Source: Cellulomonas fimi ATCC 484 (GTDB lineage: Bacteria > Actinomycetota > Actinomycetes > Actinomycetales > Cellulomonadaceae). Taken from it: a stretch of 64,000 nt of DNA. This document shows positions 45,314 to 52,144 of the stretch, in pieces. Position 1 is the first letter of the stretch; every line of letters begins with the position of its first letter. Position numbers and translations under genes: made by a program. Where the stretch lies: positions 2,480,001-2,544,000 of the forward strand of contig NC_015514.1 in assembly GCF_000212695.1 (NCBI RefSeq). Reading direction: 5' to 3'. Below the pieces are notes generated by a model that was not told the origin of the DNA, did not search any database, and saw nothing but the letters and a program-made list of their open reading frames with translations.

Positions 45314-46564
45314 ATGGGCAACCCGGTCACGACACGGCAGCTGCGGGCGGTGAGCACGCGACTCGTCCTGGACCACGTGTGGGACGTCGACGAGGTCACC
45401 GGGTCGGCGCTCATCGACGCGACCGGGCTGTCGCGCGCGACCGTGCACGACGTGTGCGACGAGCTCATCGACCAGGGCTGGGTCGTCGAGCTCGAGAGCC
45501 TGCGCACCGGCAGCGACCGGAGCAAGGGACGCCCCGCCCGCCGGTACGCGTTCGACGCCCGGGCGGGCGTGGTCGTCGGTGTCGACGCCGGTCAGCACCG
45601 GGTCAGCGCCGTCGCCGCCGACCTGCGGGGCGCGACGCTCGCACGGACCGAGCTTCCCGTCGGGCCGGACGACGCCACCCCCGAGCGCCGCCTCGCACTC
45701 GTCGAGCAGGCCGCGCTCGTCGCGCTCGACGGCGCCGGCACCTCGCCCCGTCAGGTCCTCGCGGTGTCCGTGGGCGTGCCCGCCCCGGTGGATCGCGAGG
45801 GCCGCACCTCGTTCCAGGACAACCCGTTCTGGGCCCTGATGAACCCGGACCTCGCGACCCGGCTGCACGACCGCCACAGATGGGCGACGCTCGTCGACAA
45901 CGACGCCAACCTCGCCGCCGTGGCCGAGCAGTGGCGCGGGCACGGCCGGGACGTCCGCAGCCACGTCACGCTGCTCGCCGGCGAGCGGTTCGGGGCGGGG
46001 GTCGTCGACGACGGCCGGCTGCTGCGCGGCGCGCACGGCGGCGTGGGCGAGATGCGCTACCTCGACTTCGTGGAGGGCGTCGGGTCCGCGACGGGCGTCG
46101 CCGCGCTCGTGCGGGACGACGCACGCGCGCAGCTGCGGCGCCTCGACGGCCGCGCGGGGTCCTCGCTGCAGGACGTGGACCCGGCCCGCCTCGACGCGGA
46201 GCAGGTCTTCGCGGCCGCGGCCGCCGCGGACCCGCTCGCCGTCAGCGTCGTCGAGCACGCGGCCGCGCTGCTCGCCCGCGTCGTCGCGACCTTCGCGAGC
46301 ATCTACGACCCGCAGCGGGTGATCGTCGCGGGCGCGGTCGCGGCCTCGTGCGAGCCGCTGCTCGAGCTGGTGCGCCAGGAGCTCGACCGGTACGTGGACC
46401 CGCCGGGGATCGAGGTGCTCGCCTCCGCGCTCGGCGGCGACGTCGTGACCGTCGGCGCCGTCAAGCGCGCGCTCGACCACGTGCGGGAGCACGCGCTCGA
46501 CATCGCGCCTGCCACGCTGCGTCGGCAGCCCGAGGTTCCCGACTGGATACCCCCGGGGGTATAG
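45314..46564 (+). CDS. ROK-family transcriptional regulator
   Basis: The 416-residue product has an N-terminal winged HTH (GSALIDATGLSRATVHDVCD, ELIDQGWVVELES) and a ROK sugar-kinase fold (VVGVDAGQHRVSAVAADLRG, DNDANLAAVAEQW). The zinc motif CxCGxxGC and the preceding GH of GELGH are absent (GGVGEMRYLDFVEGVG), so the kinase fold is regulatory. It is divergent from the GH13/ABC operon and probably represses it until sugar binds. The last codons contain the operator of the downstream persulfide module. Confidence 0.92.
   Translation: MGNPVTTRQLRAVSTRLVLDHVWDVDEVTGSALIDATGLSRATVHDVCDELIDQGWVVELESLRTGSDRSKGRPARRYAFDARAGVVVGVDAGQHRVSAVAADLRGATLARTELPVGPDDATPERRLALVEQAALVALDGAGTSPRQVLAVSVGVPAPVDREGRTSFQDNPFWALMNPDLATRLHDRHRWATLVDNDANLAAVAEQWRGHGRDVRSHVTLLAGERFGAGVVDDGRLLRGAHGGVGEMRYLDFVEGVGSATGVAALVRDDARAQLRRLDGRAGSSLQDVDPARLDAEQVFAAAAAADPLAVSVVEHAAALLARVVATFASIYDPQRVIVAGAVAASCEPLLELVRQELDRYVDPPGIEVLASALGGDVVTVGAVKRALDHVREHALDIAPATLRRQPEVPDWIPPGV
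46547..46562. promoter_or_regulatory. CsoR/CstR-type operator (16-bp perfect palindrome)
   Basis: ATACCCCCGGGGGTAT is a perfect palindrome with the C-tract/G-tract form known for CsoR-family operators. It overlaps the -10 box of the next gene, so a bound repressor would block RNA polymerase. Confidence 0.75.
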
Positions 46565-46565
46565 T
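46560..46565 (+). promoter_or_regulatory. -10 box (TATAGT) of the CoA-disulfide reductase promoter
   Basis: TATAGT ends 6 nt before ATG 46572, with no ribosome site between, and overlaps the 16-bp palindrome. A leaderless transcript is predicted. Confidence 0.6.
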
Positions 46566-46571
46566 GGCGCC

Positions 46572-48296
46572 ATGCCGACCCCCTCCTCCGCGACCAGCAC
46601 GCCGTCCCGCCGGATCGTCGTCGTCGGCGGCGTCGCCGGCGGCATGAGCGCCGCCGCCCGGGCGCGACGGCTCGACGAGGACGCCTCGATCGTCGTGCTC
46701 GAGCAGTCGCCGTACGTGTCGTTCGCGAACTGCGGGCTGCCGTACCACCTGTCCGGCGAGATCGAGCGCCGCGACGACCTGCTCCTGCACACCCCCGAGT
46801 CCCTCGCGGCGAGCCTCGCGCTCGACGTCCGCACCCGCAGCCGGGTCACGACGATCGACCGGCAGGCCCGCACGGTCACCGTCGCGAGCACCGACGGCGA
46901 GTACGACCTCCCGTACGACGCGCTGCTGCTGGCGCCCGGCGCGGTCGCGGTGCGGCCGCCCGTCGACGGCCTCGACCACCCCGCGGTGCACACGCTGCGC
47001 ACCATCCCGGACCTCGACGCGCTCGTGGCGCGGCTCGCCATGCGCCCGCAGGACGCCCCGGGCCGCGCCGTCGTCGTCGGGGCCGGGTTCATCGGGCTCG
47101 AGGCCGTCGAGGCGCTCACCGCGCGCGGCCTCCAGGTCGACCTCGTCGAGCTCGCCGACCACGTGCTCCCGCCGCTCGACCCCGAGCTCGCGCCGCTGCT
47201 CGCCGACGAGCTGCGTTCCCACGGCGTCGGCCTGCACCTCGGCACGTCGGCGCGCGACGTCGCACCCGCGGACGACGGGACGGCGCTCGTCACCCTCTCC
47301 GACGGGACCCGCCTGGCCGCCGACGTGGTCGTGGTCACCGTGGGCGTCCGCCCCGCGAGCGACCTCGCGCGCGCCGCCGGACTCGCCCTCGGACCCACCG
47401 GCGCGATCCGCGTCGACCACGACCAGCGCACCTCCGACCCGCACGTCTTCGCGGTCGGCGACGCCGTCGAGGTCACGCACGCCGTCACGGCCCGGACCGG
47501 GCCCGTCCCGCTGGCGGGACCGGCGAACCGGCAGGGCCGGCGGGCCGCCGACGCGATGGTCGGTCGACGGACCACGCCGCAGGCACCCGTGCTGGGCACG
47601 GCGATCGTCCGGGTGTTCGGGCTCACCGCCGCCGTCACGGGCGCGAGCCAGGCCGCGCTCGTGCAGGCGGCGATCCCGCACGAGGTCGTCCGCCTGCACG
47701 GCGGCCACCACGCGGGCTACTTCCCGGGTGCCGAGCAGGTGCACCTCGTCGCGAGCTTCGCGCCCGACGGGCGGCTGCTGGGCGCGCAGGCCGTCGGCCG
47801 CGAGGGCGTCGACAAGCGGATCGACGTGCTCGCGACCGCGCTGCGCGCCGGCATGACCGCGGACGACCTCGCCGAGCTCGAGCTCGCGTACGCCCCGCCC
47901 TACGGCTCCGCGAAGGACCCCGTCAACATGCTCGGGTTCGTCGCGCAGAACGTCCTCGACGGCACCCTGCCGCAGTGGCACGCGCCCGACGCCGACGCGG
48001 TCCTCGCCTCCAGCCTCGTCCTCGACGTGCGCTCGCGTGCGGAGTTCGACCGCGGACACCTCGACGGGGCGCTCAACGTGCCCCACACCGAGCTGCGCGC
48101 GCGCCTCGACGAGGTCCGGGCCGCCGCGGACGGCCGCCCCGTCGCGGTGCACTGCGCGAGCGGCGTGCGGTCCTACCTCGCGACGCGCGTCCTGCTGCAG
48201 TCCGGGACGGACGCCCGCAACCTGTCCGGCGGCTGGCTCACGCTGGCCGCCGTGCGTCCGGACCTCGTCCGCGTCCCGGCGACCGCCGGGGCGTGA
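46572..48296 (+). CDS. CoA-disulfide reductase fused to rhodanese (persulfide reductase type)
   Basis: The 574-residue flavoprotein handles CoA persulfide/disulfide using NAD(P)H. The FAD motif is VVVGGVAGGMSAAARAR. The catalytic cysteine C54 lies in SFANCGLPYH. The NAD motif is VVVGAGFIGLEAVEAL. The CoADR C-terminal region ends LAYAPPYGSAKDPVNMLGF. A rhodanese domain follows (about 475-570) with cysteine C528 in VHCASGVRSY. Such CoADR-Rhd fusions link sulfur-transfer and polysulfide reduction. It is preceded by a CsoR/CstR-type operator and followed by a Cys-rich peptide and a CstR-like regulator. Confidence 0.92.
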   Translation: MPTPSSATSTPSRRIVVVGGVAGGMSAAARARRLDEDASIVVLEQSPYVSFANCGLPYHLSGEIERRDDLLLHTPESLAASLALDVRTRSRVTTIDRQARTVTVASTDGEYDLPYDALLLAPGAVAVRPPVDGLDHPAVHTLRTIPDLDALVARLAMRPQDAPGRAVVVGAGFIGLEAVEALTARGLQVDLVELADHVLPPLDPELAPLLADELRSHGVGLHLGTSARDVAPADDGTALVTLSDGTRLAADVVVVTVGVRPASDLARAAGLALGPTGAIRVDHDQRTSDPHVFAVGDAVEVTHAVTARTGPVPLAGPANRQGRRAADAMVGRRTTPQAPVLGTAIVRVFGLTAAVTGASQAALVQAAIPHEVVRLHGGHHAGYFPGAEQVHLVASFAPDGRLLGAQAVGREGVDKRIDVLATALRAGMTADDLAELELAYAPPYGSAKDPVNMLGFVAQNVLDGTLPQWHAPDADAVLASSLVLDVRSRAEFDRGHLDGALNVPHTELRARLDEVRAAADGRPVAVHCASGVRSYLATRVLLQSGTDARNLSGGWLTLAAVRPDLVRVPATAGA

Positions 48297-48370
48297 GGGC
48301 GCCCGTGCCGCACCTGCCCCGTCCCACCGTCTCGACGCGATCCGCCACCCACCCCTGAAGGAGAACCCTC

Positions 48371-48487
48371 ATGTGCAGTCCCGCCCGCTGCCGCCGTTGC
48401 GGCAAGGTCACCTGGACCGGCTGCGGCATGCACGTCGACGCCGTCCTGGCCGACGTGCCCGAGAGCGACCGGTGCACCTGCCGCTGA
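48371..48487 (+). CDS. 38-residue cysteine-rich peptide
   Basis: ATG 48371 has an AAGGAG ribosome site 8 nt upstream. The product has six cysteines in 38 residues (positions 2, 7, 10, 18, 35, 37) plus H21, arranged C-x4-C-x2-C-x7-C...C-x-C, like a small metal site or sulfur carrier. Its strong ribosome site and Cys pattern make it a credible gene although many gene finders would skip it. It lies between the CoADR-rhodanese and CstR-like genes on the same strand. Its function is unknown; a zinc or sulfur-binding role is inferred. Confidence 0.75.
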   Translation: MCSPARCRRCGKVTWTGCGMHVDAVLADVPESDRCTCR

Positions 48488-48569
48488 CCCGCCGGTGCGA
48501 CGGCGAGCGGGCAGCCGCTCGCCGTCGCACCCGTCCCGCGACCCGACCCGCCACCACCAGGAGGACGCC

Positions 48570-48842
48570 GTGCAGCTCGACCCCGACGCGATGACCAAGG
48601 TCGGCAACCGGCTCAAGCGGGCCCAGGGCCAGCTGGCCGCCGTCGTCCGCATGGTCGACGAGGGAGCAGCCTGCGAGGACGTCGTCACGCAGCTGGCCGC
48701 CGTCTCCAAGGCGCTCGACCGCGCCGGCTTCGCGATCATCGCGACCGGCATGAAGCAGTGCCTGACGCAGCCCGCGACGCCTGACGAGGAGCCGACGCTC
48801 GACGTCGAGAAGCTCGAGAAGCTGTTCCTGTCGCTCGCCTGA
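48570..48842 (+). CDS. CsoR/RcnR-family repressor, CstR-like (persulfide sensor)
   Basis: The 90-residue all-helical DUF156 repressor includes LKRAQGQLAAVVRMVDEGAA and CEDVVTQLAAVSKALDRAGF. Two cysteines, C35 and C64, have the 29-residue spacing of the CsoR/CstR pair. The copper-ligand His four residues before the second Cys is Gly60 here, so copper CsoR chemistry is unlikely and the thiol-only CstR type is favoured. GTG 48570 follows AGGAGG. The operator at 46547 suggests autoregulation of the whole module. Confidence 0.88.
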   Translation: MQLDPDAMTKVGNRLKRAQGQLAAVVRMVDEGAACEDVVTQLAAVSKALDRAGFAIIATGMKQCLTQPATPDEEPTLDVEKLEKLFLSLA

Positions 48843-48860: not shown

Positions 48861-49112
48861 TCAGGCGTCGCCCTGCGGGCTCGTCGCGTCCGTGCCGTGC
48901 TTCGTCAGCTCGGCGAGGAACGCGTGGCACCGCTGCGCACGCTCCGAGTCCTCGCGCATCACCTGCTCGAAGAACGCCGCGATCTCCTCCTTGCCCGCGT
49001 TGCGGGCGTCGCGCACGTACTGGCCGTAGTCGTGCCCGGCCTTCAGGGAGTGGTACTGCACCGAGATCAGGTCGTACGTGACGTCGTCGAAGCCCGTCTC
49101 ACCTGTTGCCAT
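48861..49112 (-). CDS. Small ferritin-like helical protein (83 aa)
   Basis: The product has two long helices with DDVTYDLISVQYHSLKAGHD, YGQYVRDARNAGKEEIAAFF and EQVMREDSERAQRCHAFLAEL. The Y-x-L-x-S-V-x-Y-H and E-x-x-R-x-x-x-C-H positions resemble a half ferritin-like bundle seen in small actinobacterial stress proteins. ATG 49112 has AGGAGAG as ribosome site. Metal binding is inferred. It converges with the persulfide-module repressor. Confidence 0.65.
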   Translation of the reverse strand: MATGETGFDDVTYDLISVQYHSLKAGHDYGQYVRDARNAGKEEIAAFFEQVMREDSERAQRCHAFLAELTKHGTDATSPQGDA

Positions 49113-49251
49113 GACGCTCTCCTGGGGGTGCGCGCCGACCCCGTCCGAGGCCGCGCGTCGCGTGGCGGCCTCCTCCTCGACCGCTGCCCACGCTAGTGCG
49201 CGGCCCGGCCGCCGCAAGCGGGCCCGGGAGCCCGCTGCCGCTCCCCCGGGC

Positions 49252-49779: not shown

Positions 49780-50001
49780 TCAGCCGCCCGTCGCGAACGG
49801 GCAGCCCGCGCAGCCGACGGGTCGCACCGGCGCCGGGGCGCACGTCGAGCACCCGCCGGCCGGCCGCACGACCAGCCCTACCGCGGCGGCGTGGTCGAGT
49901 GCGGCCGTGACGACGTCGAGCGACAGACCGAGCCGCGCGGCGACGACGGCCGGGCGCAGGCCGCGGTCCGTCTCGCGCAGCACGTCCGCGAACGTGCTCA
50001 C
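49780..50001 (-). CDS. feoC: FeoC-like transcriptional/assembly factor
   Basis: The 73-residue product has a winged-helix-like first half (VSTFADVLRETDRGLRPAVV, AARLGLSLDVVTAALDHAA) and a cysteine-rich end with GGCSTCAPAP and VGCAGCPFA (CxxC...CxxC). This is the FeoC pattern proposed to sense iron or oxygen through an Fe-S cluster. GTG 50001 overlaps the FeoB stop by 4 bp, completing a feoABC operon. Confidence 0.8.
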   Translation of the reverse strand: MSTFADVLRETDRGLRPAVVAARLGLSLDVVTAALDHAAAVGLVVRPAGGCSTCAPAPVRPVGCAGCPFATGG

Positions 50002-51926
50002 AGCAGGCGCCCGACCTGGAAGACGGTGACGGCCAGCGCCCACGCCAGCACGAGCTGCACGCCGACGGCACCGGCCGTCCACCCGCGGCCCAGCAGGCGC
50101 GCCTGCTCGGCGAGCGTCGCGACGCACGGGGTGTAGGCGAGCACGAACACGAGGAACGCGAGCGCGGCCGGGCCCGGGGCGCCGCCCGACGTGCGCTCGA
50201 ACGTCTCCTGCAGCCGGCTGCCCAGGTCGCCCGGCGCCGACGGGTCCGCCGGCTCGTCGACCGCGAACGTCTGCGCGAGGGAGCCGACGACGACCTCCTT
50301 GGCGACGAACCCCGTCATCAGCGCGGACGACGCGTGCCAGTCCCCGAACCCGGCCGGGGCCAGCACGGGCGCGATCGCGTCGGCGACCCGGCCGTACACG
50401 CTGTCCTCGACCGGGACGTCGGCGACGGCGTGGCCCGGGACCGCCGGAACCGCGGTGAGCACCCACACGACCGACAGCGTCCCGACGATGACGGTGCCCG
50501 CCTTCGTCACGAACGCCCGGACCCGCACGGTCGTCGAGGTGGCGATCGCGCCGACCCGCGGGCGCTGGTACGCGGGCAGCGCGAGCACGAACGGCTCGCG
50601 CTCCAGGTCGCGGAACGCCGTGCGCCGCAGCACGGCCCCGACGCCGACGACCAGCAGCGTGGACAGGACGTACATACCGAGGACGACGGTGCCCGCGTGC
50701 CGCGGGAAGAACACCGACGCGAGCACCAGGTACACGGTGAGGCGCGCGGTGCACGAGGTCAGCGGCACGAGCAGGCCCGTGAGCAGCCGCTGCCGGGCGT
50801 GCGGCAGGACGCGCGTGGCCGACAGCGCGGGCAGGTTGCACCCGAAGCCGACGACGAGCGGCAGCACCGCGCGCCCGTCGAGGCCCACGGCCCGCATGGC
50901 CTTGTCCGCGACGAACGCGGCACGCGCGAGGTACCCGGAGTCCTCCAGGAGCGCGACGGCCACGAACACGAGCGCCATGAGCGGCACGAACGACGCGACC
51001 GTCGCGACGCCCGCGAGCACGCCGTCGAGCAGGAAGCCCGTGAGCCAGGCCGGTGCGGCGGCGAGCGCGACCCGCAGCGCGCCACCGAGCCACCCGTTCA
51101 CCGCGGTGTCGACGCCGTCCATGAGCGGGACGGCCGCGACGGTGACGAGCTCGAACACCGCCCACATGACGGCGAGCAGCACGGGCAGGCCGACCCACGG
51201 GCGCAGCAGCACCTCGTCCGCACGGTCCGACCACGTGCGCGGCGTCACCGCGGGCGGCCCGTCGAGGCCCGCGCGGGCGGTGACGTCCTGGACCCACCCG
51301 AACAGCGCCTGCGCGTCCGCGACGGGGTCGCCCCCGTCCGCCCCCGCCGCCGCATCCAGGCCGCCCGCGTCCAGGAGGCGGGGCGACGCGAGCCCGTCGC
51401 GCACGGCACCGGCGAGCAGGTCCAGCCCGTCCCCCGTGCGCGGGTCGACGCCGACGACCGGCACGCCGAGCGCGGCGGACAGGGCCACCGGGTCCACGTG
51501 CACGCCGCGCGCCGCGGCGACGTCGCGCAGCGTGAGCGCCACGACGGCGGGAAGCCCCGCGCGCGCGACCTGGCCGAGCAGGTACAGCGAGCGGACGACG
51601 GCCGTGGCGTCGACGAGCACGACGGCGAGCGCGATCCCGCCGCCCGCGAGCGCGTCGGCCGTGACCTGCTCGTCGGGCGTGCGCGCGACGAGCGAGTAGG
51701 CGCCCGGCAGGTCCAGGACGGTGGCGTCGGCCGCTCGCCAGGTGCCGGACGCGAGCTCGACGGTCGTGCCCGGGGCGTTGACGACGTGCTGCCGGGCGCC
51801 GGTGACGCGGTTGAACAGCGTCGACTTGCCGACGTTCGGGCTGCCGACGAGCCCGACCGTGGCGTGCTGCTCGGCGCCCTGCTCGGCGACGGCGGTGGCA
51901 GCGGGGGCGGTGTCGTGGCAGGTCAT
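49998..51926 (-). CDS. feoB: Ferrous iron transporter FeoB
   Basis: FeoB takes up Fe2+ through the inner membrane with an N-terminal G domain. The 642-residue product has G1 GSPNVGKS (28-35), the G2 region NAPGTTVE and G3 DLPG (72-75), then about ten membrane helices with Gate-type motifs GFGCNLPALSATRVL and PLTSCTARLTVY. The G4 motif, normally NxxD, reads TLRD (132-135), so base recognition may be altered. ATG 51926 overlaps the FeoA stop, and feoC overlaps its own stop. Confidence 0.95.
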   Translation of the reverse strand: MTCHDTAPAATAVAEQGAEQHATVGLVGSPNVGKSTLFNRVTGARQHVVNAPGTTVELASGTWRAADATVLDLPGAYSLVARTPDEQVTADALAGGGIALAVVLVDATAVVRSLYLLGQVARAGLPAVVALTLRDVAAARGVHVDPVALSAALGVPVVGVDPRTGDGLDLLAGAVRDGLASPRLLDAGGLDAAAGADGGDPVADAQALFGWVQDVTARAGLDGPPAVTPRTWSDRADEVLLRPWVGLPVLLAVMWAVFELVTVAAVPLMDGVDTAVNGWLGGALRVALAAAPAWLTGFLLDGVLAGVATVASFVPLMALVFVAVALLEDSGYLARAAFVADKAMRAVGLDGRAVLPLVVGFGCNLPALSATRVLPHARQRLLTGLLVPLTSCTARLTVYLVLASVFFPRHAGTVVLGMYVLSTLLVVGVGAVLRRTAFRDLEREPFVLALPAYQRPRVGAIATSTTVRVRAFVTKAGTVIVGTLSVVWVLTAVPAVPGHAVADVPVEDSVYGRVADAIAPVLAPAGFGDWHASSALMTGFVAKEVVVGSLAQTFAVDEPADPSAPGDLGSRLQETFERTSGGAPGPAALAFLVFVLAYTPCVATLAEQARLLGRGWTAGAVGVQLVLAWALAVTVFQVGRLL

Positions 51927-52144
51927 GCCGGCTCGACCGCGATGCGCGTGCAGGTGTGCCGGTCGAGCGCGAACCGCTCGGCGCCGACCGCGACCACCCG
52001 GCCCTGCGCACGGGCGTCGTGCGTCACCTCCACGACCGCCCCCGGCCGCAGGCCGAGCTCGCGCAGCCGCAGCCCGGCTCGACCGTCGACGCCGAGGTGG
52101 ACGACCCGGAGCAGGGATCGCGTGGGGGCACCGGTGAGGTCCAT
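51923..52144 (-). CDS. feoA: FeoA iron-transport accessory protein
   Basis: The 73-residue SH3-like protein has VVHLGVDGRAGLRLRELGLRP, GAVVEVTHDA and ERFALDRHTCTRIAVEPA, the standard FeoA pattern (AxRLxxLGLxPG..., ALxxxxAxxIxV). It is first of three overlapping genes feoABC. A DtxR/IdeR-type iron box lies 17 bp upstream of ATG 52144. Confidence 0.93.
   Translation of the reverse strand: MDLTGAPTRSLLRVVHLGVDGRAGLRLRELGLRPGAVVEVTHDARAQGRVVAVGAERFALDRHTCTRIAVEPA

Follow-up and report, generated by a model that had tools for sequence, protein, structure and literature searches.

A compact operon in the genome of Cellulomonas fimi ATCC 484 probably serves a CstR-like response to sulfane sulfur (persulfides and polysulfides), a reading which is given a probability of roughly 0.75 and is well supported by sequence, short of proof. 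The operon lies in a 64,000-nucleotide stretch (the window; bases 2480001-2544000 of the single 4.27-Mb contig; positions below are window coordinates). It consists of a 16-bp palindromic operator followed, all on the plus strand, by genes for a coenzyme A (CoA)-disulfide/CoA-persulfide reductase fused to a rhodanese, for a 38-residue peptide with six cysteines and for a CsoR-family repressor. The operator is the sole site of its kind in the genome, and both the clade of the repressor and the family of the peptide are tied to 16-bp and not to 17-bp sites. An operon with a CstR-type regulator and a CoA-persulfide reductase is of a known kind, while the peptide as a widespread member of such a regulon is apparently new. 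Bacterial persulfide sensing is known mainly through regulators and enzymes, and a conserved cysteine-rich small protein found at the same operators in many families of actinobacteria would represent a new component of sulfane-sulfur handling. An earlier note on this DNA had described the operon from its letters; the conservation of the peptide, often with an operator of its own, and the 16- versus 17-bp sites of the two CsoR paralogues go beyond it.

The operator and the genes downstream

The operator, ATACCCCCGGGGGTAT (46547-46562, read alike on both strands), is an exact palindrome of the form ATACC-N6-GGTAT, in which Nk denotes the number of bases between the half-sites ATACC and GGTAT, such that N6 corresponds to 16 bp and N7 to 17 bp. 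Exact searches of the genome with k from 5 to 8 returned this single N6 site, three N7, two N8 and one N5, and none for the backwards control pattern. With up to 3 mismatches allowed, nothing else in the window matches (against 0.10 matches expected by shuffling), and no second place in the genome is listed, the control pattern also giving one match at the same loose setting. Like the operators of CstR-like repressors, it is a G/C-tract palindrome with TAC/GTA ends; the spacing of these ends is X8, not the X9 of the copper operator TACX9GTA.

The palindrome had been claimed in the earlier note to cover a -10 box, and it does, since its right arm supplies four of the six bases of a plus-strand TATAGT (46559-46564). 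The ATG of the reductase-rhodanese gene (46572) follows only 7 nt past this -10-like box, for which reason a leaderless mRNA is expected, and the operon mRNA is probably of that type, to judge from this distance. Such a fused -10 (GGTATnnT) recurs in 29 of 34 promoters of CoA-disulfide reductase (CoADR)-type genes and in 46 of 100 peptide promoters, compared to about 17% expected from the local T content, counted over promoters in which an N6 site lies no more than 100 bp from the approximate start. Upstream, a ROK-family gene (45314-46564) runs with its 3' end through the palindrome, its stop codon (46562-46564) starting at the last base of the site.

The first gene (46572-48296) encodes 574 residues with ten Pfam matches, including Pyr_redox_2, Pyr_redox_dim and Rhodanese. 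Among its best solved relatives, whose alignments span almost the full protein, is 8a56, an entry titled Coenzyme A-persulfide reductase; domains and alignment together bear out the fusion that had been proposed. The protein contains just two cysteines, one in each catalytic motif, C54 (SFANC) and C528 (CASGVR). Both the architecture, a pyridine-nucleotide disulfide reductase joined to a rhodanese, and the two catalytic cysteines are those of CoA-persulfide reductases, and against TIGR03385, the CoA-disulfide reductase equivalog, it scores 405.1 bits with a cut-off of 578.8. The peptide (48371-48487) and the repressor (48570-48842) follow as coding sequences on the same strand, as the earlier note had them.

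A repressor clade with 16-bp sites and a copper paralogue with 17-bp sites

The repressor, a PF02583 protein of 90 residues, has a GTG start behind AGGAGG. It keeps the cysteine pair C35/C64, 29 positions apart, and carries G60 where copper CsoR has His, so that the Cys-His-Cys copper site is broken. The cysteine spacing, the missing His and the sulfurtransferase/persulfide-enzyme gene next door are all features of CstR-like repressors. The substitution noted earlier at this position holds for the whole group: among 116 distinct relatives of the non-copper type from the fetched loci, the position is G in 62, A in 41, S in 9, N in 2 and T in 2, and never His. NCBIfam matches (RicR 39.7, FrmR 30.8 and RcnR 26.1 bits) all fall far below their cut-offs and none is named CstR, and the closest named relatives are mostly from Cellulomonas. 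Among solved structures, the repressor is closest in sequence to 7mq1, an entry titled copper-sensing CsoR that is probably a pneumococcal persulfide sensor. In a tree of 86 sequences, for which 60 of the 115 other non-His sequences were taken, 25 His and 61 non-His proteins part at one branch (100/100), with the window repressor among the latter.

The genome codes for one further PF02583 protein, located elsewhere, of the Cys-His-Cys type, with a 17-bp site upstream and a neighbour that by eye is CopZ-like. The presence of this separate copper CsoR, along with the missing His, upholds the earlier view that the operon in the window is not a copper system. A scan of 31 copper-CsoR loci, each about 3.2 kb long (the best 30 PF02583 matches and the C. 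fimi locus itself), found 26 N7 sites in 26 loci, together with one N14 overlapping an N7 and not a single N6. The five loci devoid of an exact site include three with loosely N7-like sequences (L121, L130, L150), one with a loosely N6-like sequence (L144) and one with neither (L122). When the nearest exact site within 1.5 kb is scored for distinct proteins, the non-His repressors (n=116) have N6 in 62 cases, N5 in 1, N7 in none and no site in 53; the corresponding figures for the His type are 20 with N7, none with N6 and 5 with no site. The label is a sharp predictor, yet it represents one evolutionary contrast, because it changes once on the tree.

This contrast agrees with operators that were published separately (all papers are cited here from excerpts): the copper CsoR of Streptomyces lividans uses TACX9GTA, equivalent to N7 and 17 bp (PMC3902906), and ScCsoR of S. 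coelicolor, which is released by polysulfide, uses ATACCn6GGTAT (PMC7533328). A sulfur regulator of Thermus recognizes a different motif without G/C tracts, according to the excerpt (PMC10318464), and the length rule is therefore not claimed beyond the Actinomycetota. A statement of the contrast in operator spacing between copper and persulfide regulators was not found in the Creative Commons (CC)-licensed literature, a search that did not extend to the original Staphylococcus aureus CstR papers. With this rule, CsoR sites of the persulfide type and of the copper type can be told apart simply in genomes of actinobacteria, and it raises the question of how paralogues with near-identical half-sites keep off each other's operators.

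Two other N7 matches in the C. fimi genome were considered as copper sites; that at 2726821 was rejected as it overlaps the 5' end of a tRNA-Gln gene, and that at 2269925 was not taken, being without a clear target. The first of these (L039, 2322-2338) is the 17-bp ATACCCCCATGGGGTAT, and the same string occurs in several relatives. Matches of this tRNA-Gln type are false positives to be filtered from scans for copper CsoR sites.

A conserved cysteine-rich peptide at the same operators

The peptide carries its cysteines at positions 2, 7, 10, 18, 35 and 37. Members of its family were detected in 80 of 118 relative genomes (101 matches, E <= 0.01), and a profile search found 5,435 database proteins at E <= 0.001. 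Among 47 aligned diverse members, M1, C2, C7, C10, T14, G17, C18, G19, H21, V29 and C35 are invariant, and many members are longer (about 50-65 residues), with CxGH replacing CTC and a tail like GFLxRLFGR. The best 120 of the 5,435 have no Pfam domain, and those with names are called hypothetical, except for one cluster which also bears a stray terminase name. Searches of Pfam, NCBIfam and PDB with the peptide gave two chance-level matches and no real one. In the CC-licensed literature, no publication on the peptide was found; none of its papers contains the strings TTWAGCGQH, GCGQHVD or TTWSGCG from the motif, and TTWAGCG occurs in one on malaria. The predicted structure is a beta hairpin and a helix (residues 3-6, 13-16 and 19-27; pLDDT 81, pTM 0.41). 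In this model, C7-x2-C10 and C18-x2-H21 appear to sit at the places that the ligands occupy in small zinc knuckles, as judged from position and not from distances. The peptide is a genuine small protein that belongs to the regulon, and a function is proposed for it below.

Its link to the 16-bp sites was examined at three depths. From the relatives, 80 of the 101 matches were fetched, best first (leaving out the C. fimi locus, some contig ends, the weakest matches and others), and in these loci (768,572 bases) a scan with k from 0 to 14 found 77 sites, of which 74 are N6, 2 N7 and 1 N14, with none for the backwards control. Some site is present in 67 of the 80 loci, and in 31 the 400 bp preceding the peptide gene contain an N6 site. 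Neither a CsoR nor a full-size CoADR match was seen in 13 of these 31, in stretches of up to 10 kb and with some contigs being short, and 11 of the 80 loci have no site, no CsoR and no CoADR. The second set comprises 80 named loci (L151-L230), the best 80 of at least 575 relatives, in which L151/L152 and L159-L162 repeat each other; N6 accounts for 102 of its 112 sites (N5 5, N7 2, N1 2, N14 1; control 1) and lies upstream of the peptide in 44 loci. The third derives from a sample of the phylum, with 50 of 51 loci kept (L281, without a recognisable peptide, was dropped), and shows 29 N6 among 33 sites (N11 2, N5 1, N14 1; control 0), upstream of the peptide in 17. In six loci of this last set, the last two bases of the site are the AT of the peptide start codon. 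In the 400 bp ahead of the peptide gene, an N7 site was seen in 0/80, 0/80 and 0/50 loci, respectively, and the peptide itself in 0/31 of the copper-CsoR loci.

At the level of whole genomes, the 118 relatives contain 243 N6 sites, 74 of them within the 80 fetched loci. Presence of the peptide goes with N6 (with both, peptide alone, N6 alone and neither: 69/9/6/34, p 2e-15; same genus alone, 47/5/1/19) and is unrelated to N7 (57/21/29/11, p 1); G030 and G063, with E values of 0.0097 and 0.003, were counted as peptide-negative in these statistics. Within the order and among its neighbours the link between peptide and N6 is firm; at greater depth it loosens.

The 386 flanks of 203 distinct N6 sites hold the peptide in 90 cases, CoADR in 63, CsoR in 44, a rhodanese alone in 26 and unassigned genes in 163, many of these being spurious open reading frames; the loci were chosen for the peptide, and its share is not a genome-wide frequency. 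Clusters among the unassigned include thioredoxin (6), a Pyr_redox_2 flavoprotein (5) and an MMPL transporter (3), and from a cluster of 14 the tested members are one rhodanese and two proteins without a Pfam match.

Several variants of this arrangement were seen. In L051, L052 and L055 there are two CoADR-type genes each, and a second 16-bp site separates the weaker of the two from a CsoR on the same strand. In L234, L235, L239, L272 and L275, a TGTCC(G/T)-type palindrome, TTGTCCGTACAA or ATGTCCGGACAT, lies just upstream of the peptide in place of the 16-bp site, and the peptide may have come under a different regulator in these lineages. The record titles of the 80 named loci read as actinobacterial. 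Plasmid records holding peptide relatives number 73, of which 48 are from Rhodococcus or Clavibacter; the ten genera named for them are actinobacterial, and two more names, one of them Tsukamurella, were left untallied. The loci L159-L162 are identical in peptide, CsoR match and operator distance under the titles Microbacterium (plasmid), Thermocrispum, Cellulosimicrobium and Microlunatus, which reflects either recent transfer or contamination.

Proposed mechanism and alternatives

By analogy with CstR and ScCsoR, we infer repression, persulfide as the ligand, the activity of the enzyme and a single transcript. The repressor, with C35/C64 and no copper His, would bind the single 16-bp site on the -10 box and block transcription. 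Persulfides or polysulfides would modify the C35/C64 dithiol pair, upon which the repressor would leave the DNA, and a probably leaderless mRNA would be made for the CoA-persulfide reductase-rhodanese, the peptide and the repressor, the last perhaps damped by a hairpin. The enzyme would then reduce CoA-persulfide. The two precedents themselves differ in their cysteine chemistry (PMC7533328, excerpt).

The hairpin in question, a perfect 17-bp stem with a 4-nt loop between the peptide and repressor genes (48494-48531, plus strand), lacks a T run and may reduce read-through into the repressor gene; a 91-nt stretch folds there at -49.9 kcal/mol (z -3.65). It is not conserved, a hairpin at this place being rare in relatives.

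A different signal for the same cysteines (an aldehyde, quinone, hypochlorous acid or nitroxyl), with the CoADR-rhodanese serving general disulfide stress, is unlikely. Cysteine pairs are broadly reactive, and nitroxyl (HNO) also crosslinks CstR (PMC5480029, excerpt). The neighbours of N6 sites, however, are of the sulfur type (rhodaneses, CoADR-rhodanese, thioredoxin and the Pyr_redox_2 flavoprotein), a CoADR-rhodanese suits CoA-persulfide, and ScCsoR provides a precedent for polysulfide release (PMC7533328). That the operon is instead a copper system, with a divergent copper CsoR and the peptide as its metallothionein, is very improbable: PF02583 is titled a metal-sensitive repressor and cysteine-rich peptides can bind Cu(I), but the copper His is missing, the canonical CsoR with its 17-bp site resides elsewhere in the genome, and the peptide lies under no such operator, its presence and its upstream regions alike showing no relation to N7.

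Two further alternatives concern the peptide. Polycysteine attenuators occur in mycobacteria, and a short, cysteine-rich reading frame upstream of another gene could be a cysteine-responsive leader and not a working protein. Very little credence can be given to this, as there are no consecutive Cys codons, the 11 invariant positions include non-cysteine T, G, H and V, and the peptide is often not directly upstream of CsoR, being promoter-proximal alone in 13 of the 80 relatives' loci. The peptide might also belong to this regulon as a purely structural zinc-knuckle adaptor that does not itself engage in sulfane-sulfur chemistry, a possibility of rather less than even odds that is suggested by CxxC and CxxH at the hairpin turn and the helix start of the model, distances aside. 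The role proposed here, tentatively and likewise below even odds, is that of a mini metal knuckle (C7, C10, C18 and H21, probably with Zn) presenting further thiols (C2 and C35, plus C37 in short members) that would take up or pass on sulfane sulfur. This thiol role is favoured over the structural one at modest odds because C2 and C35 are also invariant, beyond a four-ligand site, which is in itself a weak argument. A broader and joint reading, whose chances fall only a little short of even, is that this large, unnamed actinobacterial family (MCxxxxCxxCGKxTWxGCGxHV...C) forms a mini metal knuckle bearing reactive thiols, is dedicated to handling sulfane sulfur and belongs to the core of the CstR-type regulon of 16-bp operators, and that the 1-bp difference in operator length separates persulfide from copper CsoRs in the same cell.

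Several points weigh against this account of the operon and its peptide. Across the phylum sample of 396 genomes, peptide and N6 show no association (32/49 genomes with the peptide vs 199/347 without, p 0.35); many of these genomes match the N6 pattern and the control alike, and the 49 of 396 may be low, as the number of candidates that the profile search scored was 16 for almost every genome listed. Half of the phylum-sample loci (25/50) are without an N6 site within about 3 kb, and 9 of the 78 peptide genomes among the relatives are without an exact one. The structural model of the peptide is only moderate in its scores, and no match to a known fold was obtained with it. The contrast between His and non-His proteins, with 17- and 16-bp sites, is a single paralogue split, one event rather than many; the non-His repressors were gathered from loci chosen for the peptide, 53 of the 116 lack a nearby exact site, and the His-type locus L144 bears a loosely N6-like one. 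With the hairpin in between, the repressor gene may not be coupled to the rest of the operon, and the binding and the ligand of the repressor are predicted from sequence.

Comparison with known systems

The sulfane-sulfur reading draws on several described circuits. In S. coelicolor, polysulfide takes ScCsoR off ATACCn6GGTAT, and C37S or C66S stops this release (PMC7533328). As is proposed for the window, a CsoR-family repressor with two cysteines acts there at ATACCn6GGTAT operators with a rhodanese among the targets; the targets described in the excerpt are PDO, a TauE-like exporter, the rhodanese and ScCsoR itself, and include neither a CoADR-rhodanese fusion nor a cysteine-rich peptide. 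The cst-like operon of Enterococcus faecalis encodes a CoA-persulfide reductase-rhodanese (CoAPR) that is under repression by CstR and needs two cysteines, C42 and C508, to which C54 and C528 of the window enzyme correspond in kind (PMC9405070). The resemblance to this CstR-regulated enzyme (8a56) sustains those parts of the earlier sulfur-type reading that sequence can address. The E. faecalis system differs in belonging to a Firmicute and in having RhdA and RhdB, and a cysteine-rich peptide is not among the parts described in the excerpt.

CstR of S. aureus is likewise a dithiol per/polysulfide repressor in an organism that also has a separate copper CsoR paralogue, unresponsive to sulfide, yet it controls cstA, cstB and sqr (PMC5480029, excerpt). 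The copper CsoR of S. lividans shares TAC/GTA half-sites with G tracts but is a copper sensor, with X9 (17 bp) compared to the X8 (16 bp) of the present operator (PMC3902906).

Neighbouring genes

Convergent to the repressor gene lies a minus-strand gene (48861-49154) for a 97-residue protein, for which Pfam and NCBIfam searches returned no match. Further along, also on the minus strand, 49998-52144 holds adjacent open reading frames which by eye are FeoB-like (a G1 motif in a long membrane protein) and FeoA-like.

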